A stretch of DNA of 64,000 nt from Deltaproteobacteria bacterium (GCA_016218805.1 JACRCW010000039.1:1-64000), one strand, 5' to 3'. Shown: positions 10,646 to 18,600, counted from the stretch's first letter. Made by a program: numbers and translations. Notes: generated by a model not told the origin, from the sequence alone.

Positions 10646-11304
10646 GCACACGGCCGGCGTGCGGGCGCGGTGGGCACACGCCCCGCCACGGCTTCCCCCC
10701 GTGTCACGCGGAACCAGGACCATGTCCCAGCGACCCGGCGTGGCCCGCCCACCGGGCCGGAGATCCACCCCCAGTGACCCGGGCATTGCCCCCCACCAGT
10801 CCGGAGGTGCCCCCAACCAACCTGGACGGCTTTCCCAGGTCAGGGGATGAACGTCCCCATGACACCTTGGGACGTTCCTATGTCGTGCGGTGTCGTTCCC
10901 CATGACACCCCTTGGCTGTCCCAGTGGCGGCACGGCCCTTCCCTGTTGTCAGGCCAGGCCCGCTCTGGGGCTGCGGCACTCGCGCGCACGACCCGGTTTC
11001 CCGATTTGACCCGGCGCGCGCTCCGTGCCGCCAGAACGCCGGTGGCCCCGGCAAACGGCATGAGCCCGAGACCGCTTTGCGGGAGTCGGTGCGGGAGCAT
11101 TCTGCCCATTCCTCCCGGAGGTGGAGGAAGCAACGGGGAGGAAGCTGCCGGCGTTGCGCCGTCAACGGCGTCGCGTGCGCCTGAGGCGCAGCAAGCTGTC
11201 TGGCGCACCCATTCCCCGCGTCGGCGGGCGCTTTCGCCAGGCGCGCCTCGAGGGCCTGTGCTCGCCAACTCGCGAAGTCTTGATCAACCCGCGATGGACC
11301 CTTG
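10646..11304. other. Long intergenic stretch between the MFS gene and the metal-efflux operon
   Basis: About 660 bases without a credible gene on either strand; all open frames translate to Pro/Arg/Ala-rich text. It holds the periodic repeat described separately (10744-10943) and, at its right end, the promoter and operator of the repressor gene. Nothing else recognisable was seen. Confidence 0.6.
10744..10943. repeat. Degenerate tandem repeat with a period of about 21-22 bp
   Basis: C-runs followed by A and a variable core recur at 10744, 10768, 10789, 10810, 10834, 10855, 10877, 10898 and 10920. The spacings are 24, 21, 21, 24, 21, 22, 21 and 22. The best-conserved units share CCCCATGACACC followed by TTGG (10855 and 10898). 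Others vary in the core but keep the C-run/A phasing and a GG step about 10 bases later. The spacing equals two DNA helical turns. The units are too divergent and too tightly packed for a CRISPR array, and no coding frame runs through them. Confidence 0.55.
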
Positions 11305-11334
11305 ACTACAACCTACTACACGGCGTAGGAGTAG
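11302..11334 (+). promoter_or_regulatory. Promoter and BlaI/CopY-type operator of the metal-efflux operon
   Basis: TTGACT at 11302-11307 is a good -35. The 17-bp dyad TACTACACGGCGTAGGA (11314-11330; arms TACTAC and GTAGGA, 5-base spacer) covers the expected -10. It also runs into the Shine-Dalgarno sequence AGGAG (11327-11331), 6 bases before the ATG at 11338. The arms match the TACTACA-NN-TGTAGTA type of site bound by BlaI/MecI/CopY-family repressors. The position predicts autorepression by blocking both polymerase and ribosome access. The site is visible; its binding is inferred. Confidence 0.7.
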
Positions 11335-11337
11335 AGC

Positions 11338-11718
11338 ATGTCCGCGACACGGCATGCGCTCGGTGAACTCGAGCACGCCATCATGAATGTCCTTTGGGCG
11401 CGCGCGCCTCTGTCGGTGCGTGAGGTTCTCGCCCGGCTGCGTCGTCGCCCCCCGCCCGCGTACACCACCGTGATGACCGTGCTGGACCGCCTCCACGCCA
11501 AGGGCCTTGTTGAGCGCGTGAAGGACGGCAAGGCGTTCCTGTACGGTCCCACGGTCACGTGCGACGAGTGGACCGCGGAAAACGCGCTTCGCGCGCTGGG
11601 CAGGGACCCCACCACGGGCGTCTTGGTCGCATTCCTGGACTCCGCCCAGCGGGCCGACTCGGACCTGATGGACCGCTTGGAGCGGCTGATCGCGGCACGG
11701 CGGGAGCGTGGCACTTGA
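11338..11718 (+). CDS. BlaI/MecI/CopY-family transcriptional repressor
   Basis: The 126-residue protein has the family's winged helix at residues 1-80: GELEHAIMNVLWARAPLSVREVLARL, then PPAYTTVMTVLDRLHAKGLVERVKDGKAFLYGP. A short C-terminal dimerisation helix ends the protein. These repressors are inactivated either by metal or by cleavage through an M56 sensor protease. The next gene encodes such a protease and overlaps this stop by 4 bases, so the two form a sensor-repressor pair. No beta-lactamase gene is present. The downstream genes encode a metal efflux pump, so I infer metal-responsive control of efflux. Confidence 0.92.
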   Translation: MSATRHALGELEHAIMNVLWARAPLSVREVLARLRRRPPPAYTTVMTVLDRLHAKGLVERVKDGKAFLYGPTVTCDEWTAENALRALGRDPTTGVLVAFLDSAQRADSDLMDRLERLIAARRERGT

Positions 11719-12689
11719 GCGCCCTCCTGCTCGGTCCGCCTCTCTTCCTGATCTTCGTCGTCTCCGCCATGGCGGCCTCCGCGTGCGTGTCCTTGTTCCG
11801 CCGGTGGAGCGCACGGCAATCCGCGCTGCTCGCGTTCCTTGCAACCGCGGGACCCCTGTTGGCGGCCCTGCTGACATTCGCCGCCTTCCTGGGTCCGCTG
11901 TTTGAAGGCCACTGCCACTGCGCGGAACATGGTCTGCATCATCCGCACCTTTGCCCACTGCACCCGTTGCACGCCGCAGGCTTGGTTGCGCCAAGCGCCT
12001 ACCTTCTGGCCGCATGGGCCCTGTTCGTCGCGCCAGAGGTCATGGTTCTGGCGCACAGCGTGCTGCGCGCGGCAAGGTGGCGCCGCGCTGTCCTGCGATT
12101 GCCCGCGCAGGTCATCAGGGGCTGCCAGGTGCGCCTCTCCCCCTGCGGCGGCCTCGGCGCGGTGACGGTCGGCCTGTTGCGCCCGGTAATCGTCGTCGAC
12201 CCGCGCGCCTGGGAGGCCCTGGAGCCGGCGGAACGGGAAGCCGTCGTCCTGCACGAAGCTGCCCATGCCCGAAGGCGGGACGGGTCCGTCCTCTTCATCC
12301 TCCGCCTGTGGTCGGCGCTGGTCCCGGTGCCCTCGCTCCGGCGCACCGTGGACGCATGGCGGGAGGCCGCGGAACACGCCTGTGACCGGGCCGCCGCGGC
12401 GACGCTGGGGAGCCCATGCACCGTCGCTGCCGCGCTCGTGGCGGTGGAGGGCTCGCGCCACGGCTGCCGCGGCGCCCCGCCGCTCGCCGTGCTCCCGGTG
12501 GCGGGTGGTGCCGGCCTGGAGGACCGCGTCCAATCACTGCTGGCCGTGGAGCACGGGACAACCCGGGCCGCGGTGCCCGCCCTCGCACCGGTCGTCGCCG
12601 TTGCGCTTGCCGCCGCGGCCATTGCCCTGACCGTCCCGACCCACCACCTCGTCGAAACCACGCTCGGTTTCCTTCTCTCGTCCCATTGA
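11715..12689 (+). CDS. M56 (BlaR1-type) membrane metalloprotease with His/Cys-rich loop
   Basis: The product is about 324 residues, beginning at the TTG at 11715 that overlaps the repressor stop (TTGA). Hydrophobic helices lie at about 1-22, 32-60, 88-110 and near the C-terminus. The zinc protease motif HEAAH is at about 180-184, followed by the EHACD element, as in M56 peptidases. There is no penicillin-binding sensor domain. Instead, the loop at about residues 66-86, between two helices, holds 8 His and 3 Cys in 21 residues, a likely metal-binding sensor. Inferred role: metal binding outside the membrane triggers cleavage of the BlaI-like repressor. The family assignment is firm; the metal trigger is inferred from the loop and the neighbouring efflux genes. 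Confidence 0.88.
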   Translation: MSALLLGPPLFLIFVVSAMAASACVSLFRRWSARQSALLAFLATAGPLLAALLTFAAFLGPLFEGHCHCAEHGLHHPHLCPLHPLHAAGLVAPSAYLLAAWALFVAPEVMVLAHSVLRAARWRRAVLRLPAQVIRGCQVRLSPCGGLGAVTVGLLRPVIVVDPRAWEALEPAEREAVVLHEAAHARRRDGSVLFILRLWSALVPVPSLRRTVDAWREAAEHACDRAAAATLGSPCTVAAALVAVEGSRHGCRGAPPLAVLPVAGGAGLEDRVQSLLAVEHGTTRAAVPALAPVVAVALAAAAIALTVPTHHLVETTLGFLLSSH

Positions 12690-12721
12690 TGACGCATGCG
12701 CCCGCTCGGAGATGCACTCCC

Positions 12722-14272
12722 ATGGCCCGAACTACTACGCCGAGTAGTATCGCAATGTCGTTCCTGGTCCTCACCCTGGCCGCGTGCCCGCGGCCGGGCG
12801 GCCCCGAACCGCACGGACATGGCCACGAGGAGTCCGCCGAACCCGAGGCCCCGCCGGTGGCCATCACGCGTTGGACCGGGCGACACGAACTGTTCGTCGA
12901 GTTTCCCTCGCCCGTGGCCGCCCAACCCATGCGCTTCCACGCCCACGTGACGAGGCTGGAGGGCACGCAGGCCGCCACGCGGGGCGTCTTCCGGGTGCTG
13001 TTCCGGCGGGGCGACACCGTCGTCGCGCAGGCCAGCGCGGCAGGCGTGACCCGCCCGGGTGTCTTCAAGCCGGAAACCACGGCGCCCGCTGCCGGGGACT
13101 ACCAGGTCGCCATGGTCTACGACGTCGAGGGCGTCACGGACACGTTCGAATGCGGGACCGTCACCGTGCACGCCACGCCGCCCGGGCCGAAGGAGGAGGC
13201 GCCGGGTGGCGCTGCCATCACGTTTCTCAAGGAGACCCAGTGGCGCATCCCGTTTGCCACGGCCGTTGCTGAGGAGAGGCCGCTCGCCGTGGAGCGCGAG
13301 TTCGCCGCTGTCGTCGACGCGGCGGGTTCCTCTCAACTCACGATCAATGCGCCCGTGGCCGGGCGCGTCCTCTTCCCGTCGTCGGGTTCGCTGGTCGTGG
13401 GAACCCGGGTGTCGGCGGGAGCGACCCTTGCCACGCTTGTGCCGTTGCTGTTCGGTGATGACCTGGCTCGGCTGCAGGCGTCTATCGCCGAATTGCGCGT
13501 GACCCAGGCGCAGCAGGAACGGGAAGTGAAACGCCTGGGGGACCTGGTGCAGCAAGGCCTCCGCACCAACCAGGACGTTGTGGAAGCGGCGAACCACCTG
13601 GAGACCACGCAGGTCCGCCTGCGAACGGCGGAGGAGCGGCTGACGCGCGTCCTGGCCACGGGCCAGCGGGACGGGGTTGCCGTGCGGAGCCCGCTGGACG
13701 CCCTGGTGTCGCAGGTCCACGTCGGGAACGGAGACACCGTCCAGGCGGGAATGCCCATCCTGCGCGTCGCGGACGTCCAGCGCCTGTGGCTGACCATGAG
13801 GTCCATCGCGCGCCCTCTCGCGGAAACGGCGGACGCGCTCCCGGTGGCGGTGCGTTTCGCGAACGGTTCCCTCGTCGACCTTGCGGCCTACGCGCCGCGG
13901 CTCCTCTCCGTCCACCCGGTCACGGACCCGGAGAGCCGCATCGCCACGTGGACCGTCGAGTTGGCGCGCGGCTCGACGTCCCCGCTCCTTGCGCTCGGCT
14001 CCTCCGTGGTGGTGGTCATGCGGATGGACCAACCCGCCAACGTCGTCGCAGTCCCGCGGACCGCGGTGGTGGAGTTGAACACGCGCCCGTGGGTGTTCGT
14101 GCAGGTGGAAGGCGAGACGTTCGAGAAGCGCGGCGTGGTCACGGGTCGCAGCGACGGGACCTGGGTGCAGATCGTCTCCGGCGTCGCCGCGGGTGAACGT
14201 GTCGTGACGCGCGGCGGTTTTGACATCCACCTGTCGTCGCTCATGGGCACGATGGAAAGCCACCGGCACTGA
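12722..14272 (+). CDS. CusB/CzcB-type RND efflux periplasmic adaptor lipoprotein
   Basis: The protein is about 516 residues. I chose the ATG at 12722 because it gives a standard lipoprotein signal (Arg3, then hydrophobic, lipobox LTLAAC with Cys22). GGAG lies about 10 bases upstream. Alternatives are the ATG at 12689, which overlaps the M56 stop (TGATG), and the ATG at 12755. A metal-binding HGHGH stands at 31-35, and the C-terminus ends SHRH. An Ig-like domain (about 45-150) precedes the adaptor core: beta-barrel/lipoyl half VAGRVLFPSSGSLVVGTRVSAG, a helical hairpin (DDLARLQASIAELRVTQAQQ), then VRSPLDALVSQVHVGNGDTVQAG and the membrane-proximal domain. It links the RND pump and the TolC-like exit duct. 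A probable operator dyad lies over its first codons. Confidence 0.9.
   Translation: MARTTTPSSIAMSFLVLTLAACPRPGGPEPHGHGHEESAEPEAPPVAITRWTGRHELFVEFPSPVAAQPMRFHAHVTRLEGTQAATRGVFRVLFRRGDTVVAQASAAGVTRPGVFKPETTAPAAGDYQVAMVYDVEGVTDTFECGTVTVHATPPGPKEEAPGGAAITFLKETQWRIPFATAVAEERPLAVEREFAAVVDAAGSSQLTINAPVAGRVLFPSSGSLVVGTRVSAGATLATLVPLLFGDDLARLQASIAELRVTQAQQEREVKRLGDLVQQGLRTNQDVVEAANHLETTQVRLRTAEERLTRVLATGQRDGVAVRSPLDALVSQVHVGNGDTVQAGMPILRVADVQRLWLTMRSIARPLAETADALPVAVRFANGSLVDLAAYAPRLLSVHPVTDPESRIATWTVELARGSTSPLLALGSSVVVVMRMDQPANVVAVPRTAVVELNTRPWVFVQVEGETFEKRGVVTGRSDGTWVQIVSGVAAGERVVTRGGFDIHLSSLMGTMESHRH
12733..12749 (+). promoter_or_regulatory. Second BlaI/CopY-type operator dyad
   Basis: TACTACGCCGAGTAGTA is a perfect 6-bp inverted repeat (TACTAC/GTAGTA) with a 5-base spacer. 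This is the same 6-5-6 geometry as the dyad at 11314-11330 in front of the repressor gene. It sits at the very start of the adaptor gene, within codons 4-10 if translation begins at 12722, or just upstream if it begins at 12755. It could repress an internal promoter for the efflux genes or act as a roadblock to read-through. Binding is inferred. Confidence 0.65.
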
Positions 14273-14278
14273 GGCCCC

Positions 14279-17200
14279 ATGTTCGACGCCATCATCCGAC
14301 TCTCCCTGCGGCACACCGGTCTCGTCGTCGCCCTGGCGCTGGCGGTGCTGGGATTCGGCATCGCAGTGGCCTCCGAGATGCCTGTGGATGTGCTGCCTGA
14401 CCTCTCCGCGCCTTCCGTCACCGTCATCACCGAGGCGCGCGGCATGGCGCCCGAGGAGGTGGAGCAACTCGTCACCATTCCCATCGAACAGGCCATCAAC
14501 GGAGCAACGGGCGTGCGCCGCCTGCGCTCGTCGTCGGCCGTGGGCATCTCGCTGGTCTGGGTCGAGTTCGACTGGGACGTGCCCGGGATGTACTCGCGCC
14601 AGGTCGTCGCCGAGAAGCTGGCCGTGGCGCGCTCGTCGCTTCCCGCCGGCATCGAGCCGGTGATGGCACCCATGTCATCCATCATGGGCGAGATCATGTT
14701 CGTCGGCCTGAAGGGTAGCGCCAGCATCGACGCCACCGCGGTGCGCGAAACCGCCGAGTGGCTCGTGCGGCGCCGGCTGCTCGGCGTGCCGGGCGTGGCG
14801 CAGGTGGTGCCCATTGGCGGCGCGATCAAGCAGGTCCACGTGGTGCTTGATCCCGATCGACTCACGCAGCTGGGCATGGACGCCGCATCAATCCAGGACG
14901 CGCTGAACGGCGCCTTTGAGAACACACCCGGCGGGTTCATTGTCGCCAGCGACCAGGAATACCTCGTGCGCGGCATCGGCCGGGTCACCTCGGTGGAGGC
15001 GGTCGGCCGCGTGGTCGTGGGCCGGCATCATGGCGTACCGGTCCTGCTGCGCGATGTGGCGGACGTGCGCGTGGGCGAGGCAATTCGGCGTGGCGACGCA
15101 TCCGTCGAGGGCACACCGGCCGTCACGCTGAAGATCCAGAAGCAGCCGCAGGCCAACACGCTCGAGCTCACGCGGCGCATCGACGTGGTGCTCGACGACC
15201 TGCAGGAGTCCCTGCCGAAGGGGATGACACTGTACCGCAAGGGTTTCCGCCAGGCGGACTTCATCGACCTGGCCATCAAGAACGTGATGGACGTGCTGCG
15301 GGACGGGTCCATCCTGGTCACGCTGGTGCTCATCCTGTTCCTGCTCAACTGGCGGCCCACGCTGATTTCCCTGGCCGCCCTCCCGTTGTCGCTGCTTGTC
15401 GGCATCCTGGTCCTGCGCTGGCTGGGCGCGTCCATGAACACCATGACGCTCGGCGGGTTCGCCATCGCCATCGGCGAACTGGTGGACGACGCCATCATCG
15501 GCGTGGAGAACGTGCACCGGCGGCTGCGCGACAACAGCCTCGTTCCCGAGAGCGCGCGCCGGCCCGTTTTCGACATCGTCTCCGAGGCGTCCCGCGAGGT
15601 CCGCGGGTCCATTGTGTTTGCGACCACGATCATCCTCATGGTCTTTGCGCCGTTGTTCTTTCTCAGCGGGCTGGAGGGACGCCTGCTCCGGCCGCTGGGC
15701 ACCGCGTACGTGGTCAGCATTGGCGCGTCACTGATTGTGGCGCTGACGGTCACCCCGGTGCTCTGCCTGCTCCTGCTGGGCGGCACACCGCACGCCGTAC
15801 GGGCTGACTGGGCCATGGTGCGGTGGATGAAGGCCGGGTACCGCCGGATCCTCCACGGCCTCGTACGCCACGGCGCGGTCATCGGCGTGCTGTCGTTGGC
15901 CGGTGCCATCACCGCCACCACCGCCATGTTCTCGTTTGGCCGGCGGTTCCTGCCTGAGTTCAACGAGGGCGCGCTGAACATTGCCGCGGCCACGGCGCCG
16001 GGGACGTCGCTGGCGACCTCGATTGAGATGGTTGGACGCCTGGAGTCCTTCCTCGTCGCTCATCCGGCCGTGGCCTCCGTGGTTCGCCAGACGGGCCGCG
16101 CTGAGCGTGACGAGCATGCGCAGGACGTCAACTTCTCCGAGCTCGAGGTGGGGCTGAACATTGAGGAGGGAGATCGGGAACGTGTCCTCGCGGACATCCG
16201 CGAGCAGGCGGCGCGGATTCCCGGGCTCGCTGTGGCGGTGGGCCAGCCCATCAGCCACCGCATCGAGCACCTGCTCAGCGGCGTGCGCGCCCCGCTGGTC
16301 CTGCGCATCTTTGGCGACGACCTGGACCAGCTGCGGGCCCTGGCGCGGCAGGCGGAGGCGGCCATGAAGCGCGTGCCCGGTCTCGTTGATGTCAACGTGG
16401 AGCAGCAGACGGAGATCCCCCAACTTGCCATCCGTCCGCGTGAGACAGAGCTGGCGGCGTTCGGGATGACGCCTGGCCAGCTTGCGCGCTTCACCGAAAT
16501 GGCCCTTGCTGGCCAGGTGGTGGGCACGTGGTGGGAACACCAGCGCTCGTACGACGTCATCCTGCGGATGCCGGACGCGTACCGTGCCAGCGCGGATCTC
16601 GTGGGCGCTACGCCAGTGCACCACATGGACGGGCGGGCGGTTCCCCTGTCAGCCGTGGCCACCATCGACAGGACGCTTGCGCCAAACCTTGTGAACCGGG
16701 AGAACGCGCAGCGGCGGATCGTGGTGTCAGCAAGCGTCACCGGTCGGGATGTGCGCGGTGCCGCGGAGGACGTGCTGCGCAGCGTGACCGCGCAGGTGAG
16801 GCTGCCGCCGCAGTACCACGTGGAGCTTGGTGGCGAGTTCGAGAGCGAGGCGCGGGCCAGCCGCACCATCCTGCTTCTCTCTTTGCTGGCGATCCTGGGG
16901 ATGGCCGTGCTTCTCGGCATCGCGTTCCGATCTGCGCGCGACGCAGCGCTCGTGATGGTGAACCTCCCGCTTGCTCTCATGGGCGGCGCGGCGGCCGTCG
17001 CCATGACCGGGAGCATCCTGAGCGTGGCCTCCCTCGTTGGGTTCATCACCCTGTTCGGGGTGGCCACGCGTAACGGGATCATGATGGTGACGCACTACCG
17101 TCACCTCGTGGTCCGCGAGCAGCGGACCCTCCGCGACGCCGTGCTGGACGGGAGCGTGGACCGGCTCGTCCCCATCCTGATGACTGCGCTCACTGCGGCG

Positions 17201-17350
17201 CTCGGGCTCGTTCCCATCGTGCTGGCCACCGGTGAACCCGGCAACGAGATCCAGGCACCCATGGCCGCGGTCATCCTCGGCGGCCTCGTCACTTCCACCG
17301 TGTTGAACCTGTTTGTCGTGCCGCCGCTGTTCACGCGGTTCGCGAGGTGA
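14279..17350 (+). CDS. CusA/CzcA-type heavy-metal efflux RND transporter
   Basis: The 1023-residue inner-membrane proton antiporter has the usual heavy-metal RND length and layout: a first helix, then a large periplasmic domain beginning SEMPVDVLPDLSAPSVTVITEARG. Helices 2-6 run from about 340 to 500, followed by a second periplasmic domain and helices 8-12. The proton-relay helix reads IAIGELVDDAIIGVENVHRR (about 396-415), with the acidic residues typical of CusA/CzcA. GVATRNGIMMVTHYRHL near 925 is another family signature. It exports metal from the periplasm or cytoplasm through the adaptor and TolC-like partners encoded on either side. Monovalent (Cu/Ag) versus divalent (Zn/Co/Cd) specificity cannot be decided here. 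Confidence 0.96.
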   Translation: MFDAIIRLSLRHTGLVVALALAVLGFGIAVASEMPVDVLPDLSAPSVTVITEARGMAPEEVEQLVTIPIEQAINGATGVRRLRSSSAVGISLVWVEFDWDVPGMYSRQVVAEKLAVARSSLPAGIEPVMAPMSSIMGEIMFVGLKGSASIDATAVRETAEWLVRRRLLGVPGVAQVVPIGGAIKQVHVVLDPDRLTQLGMDAASIQDALNGAFENTPGGFIVASDQEYLVRGIGRVTSVEAVGRVVVGRHHGVPVLLRDVADVRVGEAIRRGDASVEGTPAVTLKIQKQPQANTLELTRRIDVVLDDLQESLPKGMTLYRKGFRQADFIDLAIKNVMDVLRDGSILVTLVLILFLLNWRPTLISLAALPLSLLVGILVLRWLGASMNTMTLGGFAIAIGELVDDAIIGVENVHRRLRDNSLVPESARRPVFDIVSEASREVRGSIVFATTIILMVFAPLFFLSGLEGRLLRPLGTAYVVSIGASLIVALTVTPVLCLLLLGGTPHAVRADWAMVRWMKAGYRRILHGLVRHGAVIGVLSLAGAITATTAMFSFGRRFLPEFNEGALNIAAATAPGTSLATSIEMVGRLESFLVAHPAVASVVRQTGRAERDEHAQDVNFSELEVGLNIEEGDRERVLADIREQAARIPGLAVAVGQPISHRIEHLLSGVRAPLVLRIFGDDLDQLRALARQAEAAMKRVPGLVDVNVEQQTEIPQLAIRPRETELAAFGMTPGQLARFTEMALAGQVVGTWWEHQRSYDVILRMPDAYRASADLVGATPVHHMDGRAVPLSAVATIDRTLAPNLVNRENAQRRIVVSASVTGRDVRGAAEDVLRSVTAQVRLPPQYHVELGGEFESEARASRTILLLSLLAILGMAVLLGIAFRSARDAALVMVNLPLALMGGAAAVAMTGSILSVASLVGFITLFGVATRNGIMMVTHYRHLVVREQRTLRDAVLDGSVDRLVPILMTALTAALGLVPIVLATGEPGNEIQAPMAAVILGGLVTSTVLNLFVVPPLFTRFAR

Positions 17351-18600
17351 CGTCAATGTGGCGCGTCGTTGCCGTCGTCCCGTTGGTGTCCACCGTGGCG
17401 CTCGCCGCGGGCCAGGAGGGCCGCGCAGGCCTGACGCTGGAGTCGGCCATGGCGCTGGCGCGCGCGCGGGCCCCGTCGGTGCTGGCGGCCGACACAGAGC
17501 TGCGCGCGGAGCAGGCCAGCCGCGTAGGGGCCACGCCGCTGTTCGCGCGCAACCCAAGCCTGGAGGGCGGCGCCGGCGGTATGCTGGTCCCGGCGGCCCG
17601 GCTGCGCGATTGGCGCGATACGACCGCGGGTCCCACCGCGTTTCTGGGCGTGGCGATACCCATCGAGATTGCAGCCCAGCGTTGGAGCAGGGTGGCCGCG
17701 GTCGACGCGCGCATCGCGGTGCGGCGGGCCAACCGCGACGACGCGGTACGGGAGGCGTTGTTCTCGGTGGGAGAGGAGTTCTTCCGGGTGCTGCACGCGC
17801 AACGCCGCGAGCAACTTGCGGAGGAGACGGTCGCCGTGGCGACGCGGTGGTGCGCGGCCATCCGCGCGCGCCAGGCAGCTGGGGACGCGTCCAGGCTGGA
17901 TGTCCGCATTGCCGACGCGGAGCTGGCGACGGCCGAGCAGGCTCTGCTGGCCCACCGCGGGGCGCACCACGTGGCGAAGGCCCGCCTGGCCGCGCTGCTT
18001 GGCGCGGGAACGGAGGCTGTGCAGGACGTGACCGGTGACCTCGTCCCGCCGACGCCGTTGCCGTCGTTGGAGGACGCGCTTGCCCACCTGGCGGAACGCG
18101 CGGACATCCGCGCGGTGCGCATGGGGCGGGGAGCCGCACTGCGGGAGGCCAACGTTGCCGCGGGCAACGCGTTCCCCAGCCCGACGCTGAAGAGCTACTA
18201 CCAGTACTGGAATCGCGAACACGCCCTGATGGCCACCGTGGAGGTGCCGCTTCCCATCTTCGACCGGGGGCAGGGCGAGGAGGCGCGTGCGCGCGCCCGC
18301 GCCAGCGGCCTCGCCGCCGAGCCTGACGCGCGGTTGGACAGGGCCCGCATGGAGGTGACGCAGGCATGGGAGTTGGCGCGCACGCTGGCGTCCCTGCGCG
18401 AGGTTTCCAGTTCCCGTGACGATGCGATGACGCTGCCCGCGGACCTCGAAGAACAGCTCAGGTCGCATCGCGTTGAGCTGGCCACGGTCCTGCTGGCCCA
18501 GCGGCAGGTCATGCAGCTCAGGGCGGAAGCGCTGGACCTGCAGCTGCTGGAAGCCATGGCCCGCTTGTGGCTGGACCATGCGTCCGGCGTGTTGAAGTAG
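17347..18600 (+). CDS. TolC/CusC/CzcC-type outer-membrane efflux protein
   Basis: The 417-residue product starts at the GTG at 17347, overlapping the transporter stop by 4 bases (GTGA); the ATG at 17356 is an alternative. An N-terminal signal peptide (MWRVVAVVPLVSTVALAAG) is followed by the outer-membrane factor pattern LTLESAMALARARAPSVLAADTELRAEQA and two repeated helical-hairpin halves. In the second half, YQYWNREHALMATVEVPLPIFDRGQGEEARARARA is the classic motif. It forms the exit duct through the outer membrane for the adjacent adaptor and RND pump. There is no lipobox Cys, unlike many CusC proteins. It is the last gene of the five-gene operon. Confidence 0.93.
   Translation: MTSMWRVVAVVPLVSTVALAAGQEGRAGLTLESAMALARARAPSVLAADTELRAEQASRVGATPLFARNPSLEGGAGGMLVPAARLRDWRDTTAGPTAFLGVAIPIEIAAQRWSRVAAVDARIAVRRANRDDAVREALFSVGEEFFRVLHAQRREQLAEETVAVATRWCAAIRARQAAGDASRLDVRIADAELATAEQALLAHRGAHHVAKARLAALLGAGTEAVQDVTGDLVPPTPLPSLEDALAHLAERADIRAVRMGRGAALREANVAAGNAFPSPTLKSYYQYWNREHALMATVEVPLPIFDRGQGEEARARARASGLAAEPDARLDRARMEVTQAWELARTLASLREVSSSRDDAMTLPADLEEQLRSHRVELATVLLAQRQVMQLRAEALDLQLLEAMARLWLDHASGVLK

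Follow-up and report, generated by a model that had tools for sequence, protein, structure and literature searches.

A repressor of the BlaI family and a membrane protease of the M56 family, encoded beside a heavy-metal efflux pump of the resistance-nodulation-division (RND) type, probably constitute a periplasmic metal-sensing switch that controls the pump by destroying the repressor, a reading to which we give a probability of about 0.72. The genes lie in a 64,000-nucleotide (nt) stretch of DNA from a Deltaproteobacteria bacterium (GCA_016218805.1 JACRCW010000039.1:1-64000), referred to here as the window, with coordinates counted from its first letter; five plus-strand genes at 11338-18600 code for a BlaI repressor, an M56 protease, an adaptor, a CusA/CzcA-class RND permease, and a TolC-like protein. 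The original prediction of a metal-sensing proteolytic switch finds support in a conserved loop and a conserved tail of the protease, in paired operators, and in an almost exclusive link of this protease class to heavy-metal RND pumps, with the induction step being predicted from sequence. Somewhat less firmly, we consider it rather likely that the protease represents a whole class of receptors of the BlaR1 type whose first extracellular loop (EL1) has itself become the ligand sensor, with a metal site formed by loop and tail gating the protease directly and no separate sensor domain involved.

The M56 protein (324 residues; 11715..12689, plus strand) has a TTG start that overlaps the blaI stop by 4 nt, and belongs to Peptidase M56 by its PF05569 match (33.6 bits, cut-off 31) together with the HExxH and ExxxD motifs. 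The zinc-protease motif HEAAH occupies residues 180-184 (12252..12266, plus strand), and the second half of the gluzincin signature, E220-xxx-D224, follows at 12372..12386 (plus strand). Between transmembrane helices (TM) 2 and 3 lies a His/Cys loop, residues 66-86 (HCHCAEHGLHHPHLCPLHPLH; 11910..11972, plus strand), in which we count 8 His and 3 Cys, exactly as predicted. In an alignment of 28 members at about 30% identity (27-67% to the window protein), just 15 columns never vary, and these include C69, H78, C80, and H83 of the loop, H180, E181, H184, and D224 of the protease site, and H310 and E314 of a C-terminal tail; E220 is kept in 27 of the 28, as are loop residues H68 and H76 and tail residue H311. 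Because its core is invariant in 28 homologues, the loop is no chance feature, and its residues and those of the tail match the catalytic HExxH in degree of conservation. The tail motif – HHLVE in the window (residues 310-314; 12642..12656, plus strand, directly after TM4) and HHxVET across the class – is a feature beyond those noticed previously.

Family-mean hydropathy places TM1 at residues 2-21, TM2 at 43-61, the loop at 62-87, TM3 at 88-110, and TM4 at 293-309. The protein ends about 15 residues past TM4, PF05569 is the only domain found, and the C-terminal penicillin-binding sensor domain of BlaR1 and MecR1 is missing, in agreement with the original prediction. In BlaR1, which carries the same HExxH...ExxxD signature, the N terminus is outside the cell, EL1 (residues 56-96) connects helices 2 and 3, the protease site is cytosolic, and displacement of EL1 shifts helix 3, providing a link to the protease (PMC9834060). 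By alignment and hydropathy the His/Cys loop sits at the EL1 position, and hydropathy together with the BlaR1 structure suggests four membrane passes, with HExxH on the cytosolic side and both the loop and the HHxxE tail in the periplasm.

A profile built from five M56 proteins and searched over 195 Myxococcota genomes returned 29 full-length matches of the loop class in 28 genomes, separated from others by a sharp gap in score (E 1.1e-32 or better for the class, no better than 1.3e-22 for the generic M56 proteins that come next). The neighbourhoods of all 29 loci were read, with RND genes recognised by profile, and such a gene stands beside the BlaI-M56 pair in 24 of them, most commonly in the order BlaI-M56-TolC-adaptor-RND, the window having adaptor-RND-TolC instead. 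The five others comprise three at contig ends (L059, L061, and L063), one with an adaptor remnant (L022), and one (L069) without a recognisable RND gene. At L069 (12384-12761), the pair precedes genes for TolC and an adaptor, and the RND gene, not recognised in full, may be truncated or frameshifted. Pairwise distances between the M56 proteins track those of the RND, adaptor, and TolC proteins (Spearman 0.82-0.86), although species relatedness alone would give some correlation.

For comparison we used 59 other M56 loci, 19 of them lower-scoring matches read by eye (L026-L028 and L083-L098) and 40 scored (L138-L177); these were drawn from the matches listed, and their counts describe a sample rather than a census. 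The full His/Cys loop occurs in none of the 59, and no stretch of 22 residues in the N-terminal region of the 40 scored proteins holds more than 4 His/Cys. Only two adjoin an RND gene directly. Three (L158, L170, and L175) represent one recurring type of non-loop locus near a CusA/CzcA pump, and were not counted as pump-linked because a gene on the opposite strand separates M56 and pump in L158, the locus of this type that was inspected. The sensor idea would have suffered if loop-less M56 genes were equally common beside pumps, and in Myxococcota they are not (24/29 for the loop class versus 5/59 with any RND within reach); the loop is tied to heavy-metal RND pumps strongly, though not perfectly. 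No loop-class member was found in 297 Bacteroidota genomes, where the best matches span the protease half only (E 1.5e-24), a negative that holds for this phylum and not for others; plasmid searches with two M56 queries gave no match, a profile scan of viral contigs revealed no loop-class M56, and a single-protein scan of genome contigs returned only a distant Bacteroidetes M56. Directly 5′ of the L158 pump operon, which is of CusA/CzcA type, is a small protein of Cys/His repeats (CEHGVQKSLCTRCNP...; L158 11776-12500), and similar repeats seem to be present in the adaptor.

The repressor gene (11338..11718, plus strand) codes for 126 residues with one Cys, and membership of the BlaI/MecI family is evident from its Penicillinase_R domain (PF03965, 2.4e-23; 83.1 bits, gathering score 22.6). 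Its nearest solved structure is 2g9w, a 138-residue conserved hypothetical protein that we take to be M. tuberculosis BlaI, Rv1846c. The CxC metal motif is found in none of 23 BlaI proteins of the loop class, including that of the window, so sensing probably takes place outside BlaI.

Palindromes of the BlaI type, CTACTAC-N5-GTAGTAG, are present in the 64 kb as two copies with one mismatch each, against 0.04 expected (at three or fewer mismatches). O1 (CTACTAC-ACGGC-GTAGGAG; 11313..11331, plus strand) ends 6 nt 5′ of the blaI start codon, and O2 (CTACTAC-GCCGA-GTAGTAT; 12732..12750, plus strand) lies ahead of the adaptor start or coincides with it. Across the 6.43-Mb genome only four sites have the exact core TACTACN5GTAGNA, namely O1, O2, and a further two beside another BlaI-M56 pair. 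A palindrome at the O1 position is present in 23 of 29 related loci and one at the O2 position in 21 of 28, 44-59 bp 3′ of the M56 stop, with shuffled stretches scoring at most 11 of 14 matches; L080 has variant palindromes (CTCCTA...TAGGAG). The upstream site of many relatives reads TACTATTGACGGTAGTAG, including a TTGAC that is likely a -35 box. In the window, direct reading gives TTGACT immediately 5′ of O1 (11302..11307, plus strand), a weak candidate for the -35 element of the promoter that drives the regulatory pair; a promoter and terminator scan found nothing, consensus-type sigma-70 promoters included.

Since palindromes flank the regulatory pair, upstream of blaI and between M56 and the adaptor, the locus divides into a regulatory unit and a pump unit with separate operators, rather than forming a run of five genes that simply touch. 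The predicted overlap or near contact of the genes holds for blaI with M56 and for RND with TolC (4 nt each) and fails for M56 and the adaptor, which are separated by a gap of 32-68 nt that contains O2. Imperfect tandem repeats at 10726-10909 (a 44-nt unit with 70% identity and a 35-nt unit with 71%) lie between the operon and an upstream gene resembling the major facilitator superfamily.

The second pair of this genome (L022 5260-7399; contig C28:104259-106398) has an M56 protein 67-68% identical to that of the window, the same loop, and both operators. Behind it there is no pump, only the remnant of an adaptor with an internal deletion, and about 4 kb upstream, on the opposite strand, is another TolC-adaptor-RND set (L178 9196-15052). 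With operators nearly identical and only a remnant behind the pair, one might speculate that it acts in trans on the pump of the window.

The pump genes complete the predicted gene order of repressor, protease, adaptor, RND, and TolC, all five domain families being found with Pfam and NCBIfam profiles. The adaptor (12758..14272, plus strand, with an alternative start at 12722) is a periplasmic lipoprotein above the TIGR01730 cut-off (4.8e-30), and the HGHGH said to follow its lipobox is there, with LAAC followed by PHGHGHEE. The RND permease (14279..17350, plus strand; motif AIAIGELVDDAIIGVEN) belongs to the CusA/CzcA heavy-metal subfamily (TIGR00914, 748 bits, cut-off 701), and the TolC-like outer-membrane factor (17347..18600, plus strand) matches PF02321 (OEP, 7.9e-27). 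This arrangement of adaptor, RND permease, and TolC-like channel is that of CusCBA and CzcCBA, pumps that – unlike that of the window – are usually under two-component, extracytoplasmic function sigma factor, or MerR-type control.

CusA and ZneA are the best solved relatives of the permease. What we take to be the copper-binding Met triad of CusA (M573/M623/M672), a member of the heavy-metal efflux (HME) group HME4, is not conserved, the aligned residues being Ala, Phe, and His. The Czc/Cnr-type HME1 and HME2 groups share the TM4 signature DFGx3DGAx3VEN (PMC3637150), which is also missing from the window permease, where TM4 reads AIGELVDDAIIGVEN. Most relatives have AIGxxVDDAIIDVEN, and the class-wide motif, AIGxxVDDAII[DG]VEN, is neither DFG..DGA of HME1/2 nor AIGAMVDAAIVM of CusA. 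The earlier label 'CusBAC-like' is therefore too specific, the pump being closer to divalent-cation pumps than to CusA. Partner genes of other loop-class operons point the same way: the L025 operon runs on into a gene for DmeF, which exports Co/Ni (NF033827, 393 bits, cut-off 250), and L080 has an RND with the DFG/VDGA (HME1/2-type) motif and a HupE/UreJ-type gene at its end (16009-16800). In L023 (1654-2448) P-II, CBS, and CorC/HlyC transporter-associated domains are fused in a protein encoded directly after the RND gene. Because of the absent Met triad, the TM4 motif unlike that of CusA, and these partner genes, a divalent ion (Co, Ni, or Zn) appears likelier than Cu(I) as the inducing metal; that divalent ions, especially Co and Ni, take precedence over Cu(I) at the window itself is something we only infer.

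We propose that BlaI, bound at the two operators, keeps the pump genes as well as blaI and the M56 gene repressed, as is typical of its family. A periplasmic metal, most likely divalent (Co, Ni, Zn, or Cd), would be bound by Cys and His of the loop together with His and Glu of the tail, and the metal-bound loop would pull on TM3 and so activate the protease. Activated M56 would then cleave BlaI, switching on both transcription units, and the adaptor, RND permease, and TolC channel would expel the metal while more sensor is made; once the metal falls, newly made BlaI would shut the system. A loop that is itself the binding site for the signal would thus stand in for EL1 and the penicillin-binding domain of BlaR1.

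Several observations weigh against this scheme. Consensus operators are absent from about six loci of the loop class, and a single-sequence AlphaFold model of the M56 protein (pLDDT 46) is too poor for contact between loop and tail to be judged. Moreover, L083 (5369-11006) has a comparable layout, BlaI-M56-membrane fusion protein-RND, yet its loop is acidic (HTEPEQSDE) and lacks His and Cys, and its RND falls short of the TIGR00914 cut-off; an M56 can thus be linked to a pump without a His/Cys loop. L083 and L087 (1355-8635), the latter with a partial loop (CLFDHNAALCFE) and a CusA/CzcA-family RND, are divergent BlaI-M56-pump operons that may represent sister systems with other signals. Lastly, the two invariant periplasmic Cys could form a disulphide instead of a metal site. 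A thiol-redox sensor, in which oxidative or disulphide stress joins C69 to C80 and the protease answers redox rather than metal, would account for their strict invariance, but it has no need of the four to six conserved His of loop and tail or of the constant heavy-metal pump partner, and we regard it as quite improbable.

The classical role of BlaI and M56 proteins as beta-lactam regulators suggests an ordinary pair, responding to beta-lactams or cell-wall stress, that stands beside a pump by chance and has an incidental loop. Like BlaI/BlaR1 and MecI/MecR1 of staphylococci, the window system has a repressor-protease pair with HExxH...ExxxD, four TM, a loop at the EL1 position, and palindromic TAC/GTA operators, and sensor-less BlaR-like M56 proteins do exist, such as M. 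tuberculosis Rv1845c. It differs in having no C-terminal penicillin-binding sensor, a His/Cys loop in place of EL1, the HHxxE tail at the position of the sensor domain, and a metal pump as target. Without the penicillin-binding domain the beta-lactam reading was rejected, and conservation of the loop across families, the prevailing linkage to heavy-metal pumps, and the restriction of exact operators to BlaI-M56 pairs leave it very improbable. Direct binding of metal by BlaI, with the protease as an accessory, stands an equally slim chance. CopY and TcrY share the winged-helix fold of the BlaI superfamily, TAC/GTA operators, and control of metal export, and BlaI scores 44.8 bits on the CopY/TcrY model, far below its equivalog cut-off of 121.95. 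CopY repressors sense metal themselves through CxC motifs (PMC7253601), whereas the window BlaI has none and has a protease partner instead, on which grounds this assignment too was rejected.

The closest precedent is PetR/PetP of Synechocystis PCC 6803, in which a BlaI-family regulator is degraded by a copper-responsive BlaR-type protease (PMC7896320, PMC10141476, PMC12292863, PMC13421787). As there, the regulator adjoins an M56/BlaR1-type membrane protease, and metal triggers repressor degradation in PetRP (PMC7896320, PMC10141476, PMC12292863); compared by description, PetRP differs in switching plastocyanin and cytochrome c6 rather than efflux, in having no pump, and in that PetR also activates. 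With PetP a copper-activated BlaR-type protease, and His/Cys loops fitting Cu and Zn equally, copper might activate the window protease on the cytosolic side or directly at a place other than the loop, which would then be a metal buffer or structural zinc site. We think this unlikely, because invariance of loop and tail in the pump-linked class and their absence from comparison M56 proteins fit a signal-specific role, and because the Met triad of CusA is missing from the pump and the partner genes suggest Co/Ni.

PetR/PetP also means that a metal-sensing BlaI-M56 switch is not undescribed in principle, as had been supposed; for efflux pumps and for Myxococcota the supposition stands as far as the searched literature shows, and a search largely without subscription papers, including a 2010 study of metal efflux in M. 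xanthus, found no description of the window system. If our reading is true, proteolytic signalling of the BlaI/BlaR type, beyond antibiotics and the plastocyanin switch that depends on copper, also governs heavy-metal efflux in soil-dwelling Gram-negative predators. The system would also offer a minimal receptor – about 320 residues, no sensor domain, and a simple ion as ligand – for understanding how EL1 of BlaR1 controls a protease across the membrane.
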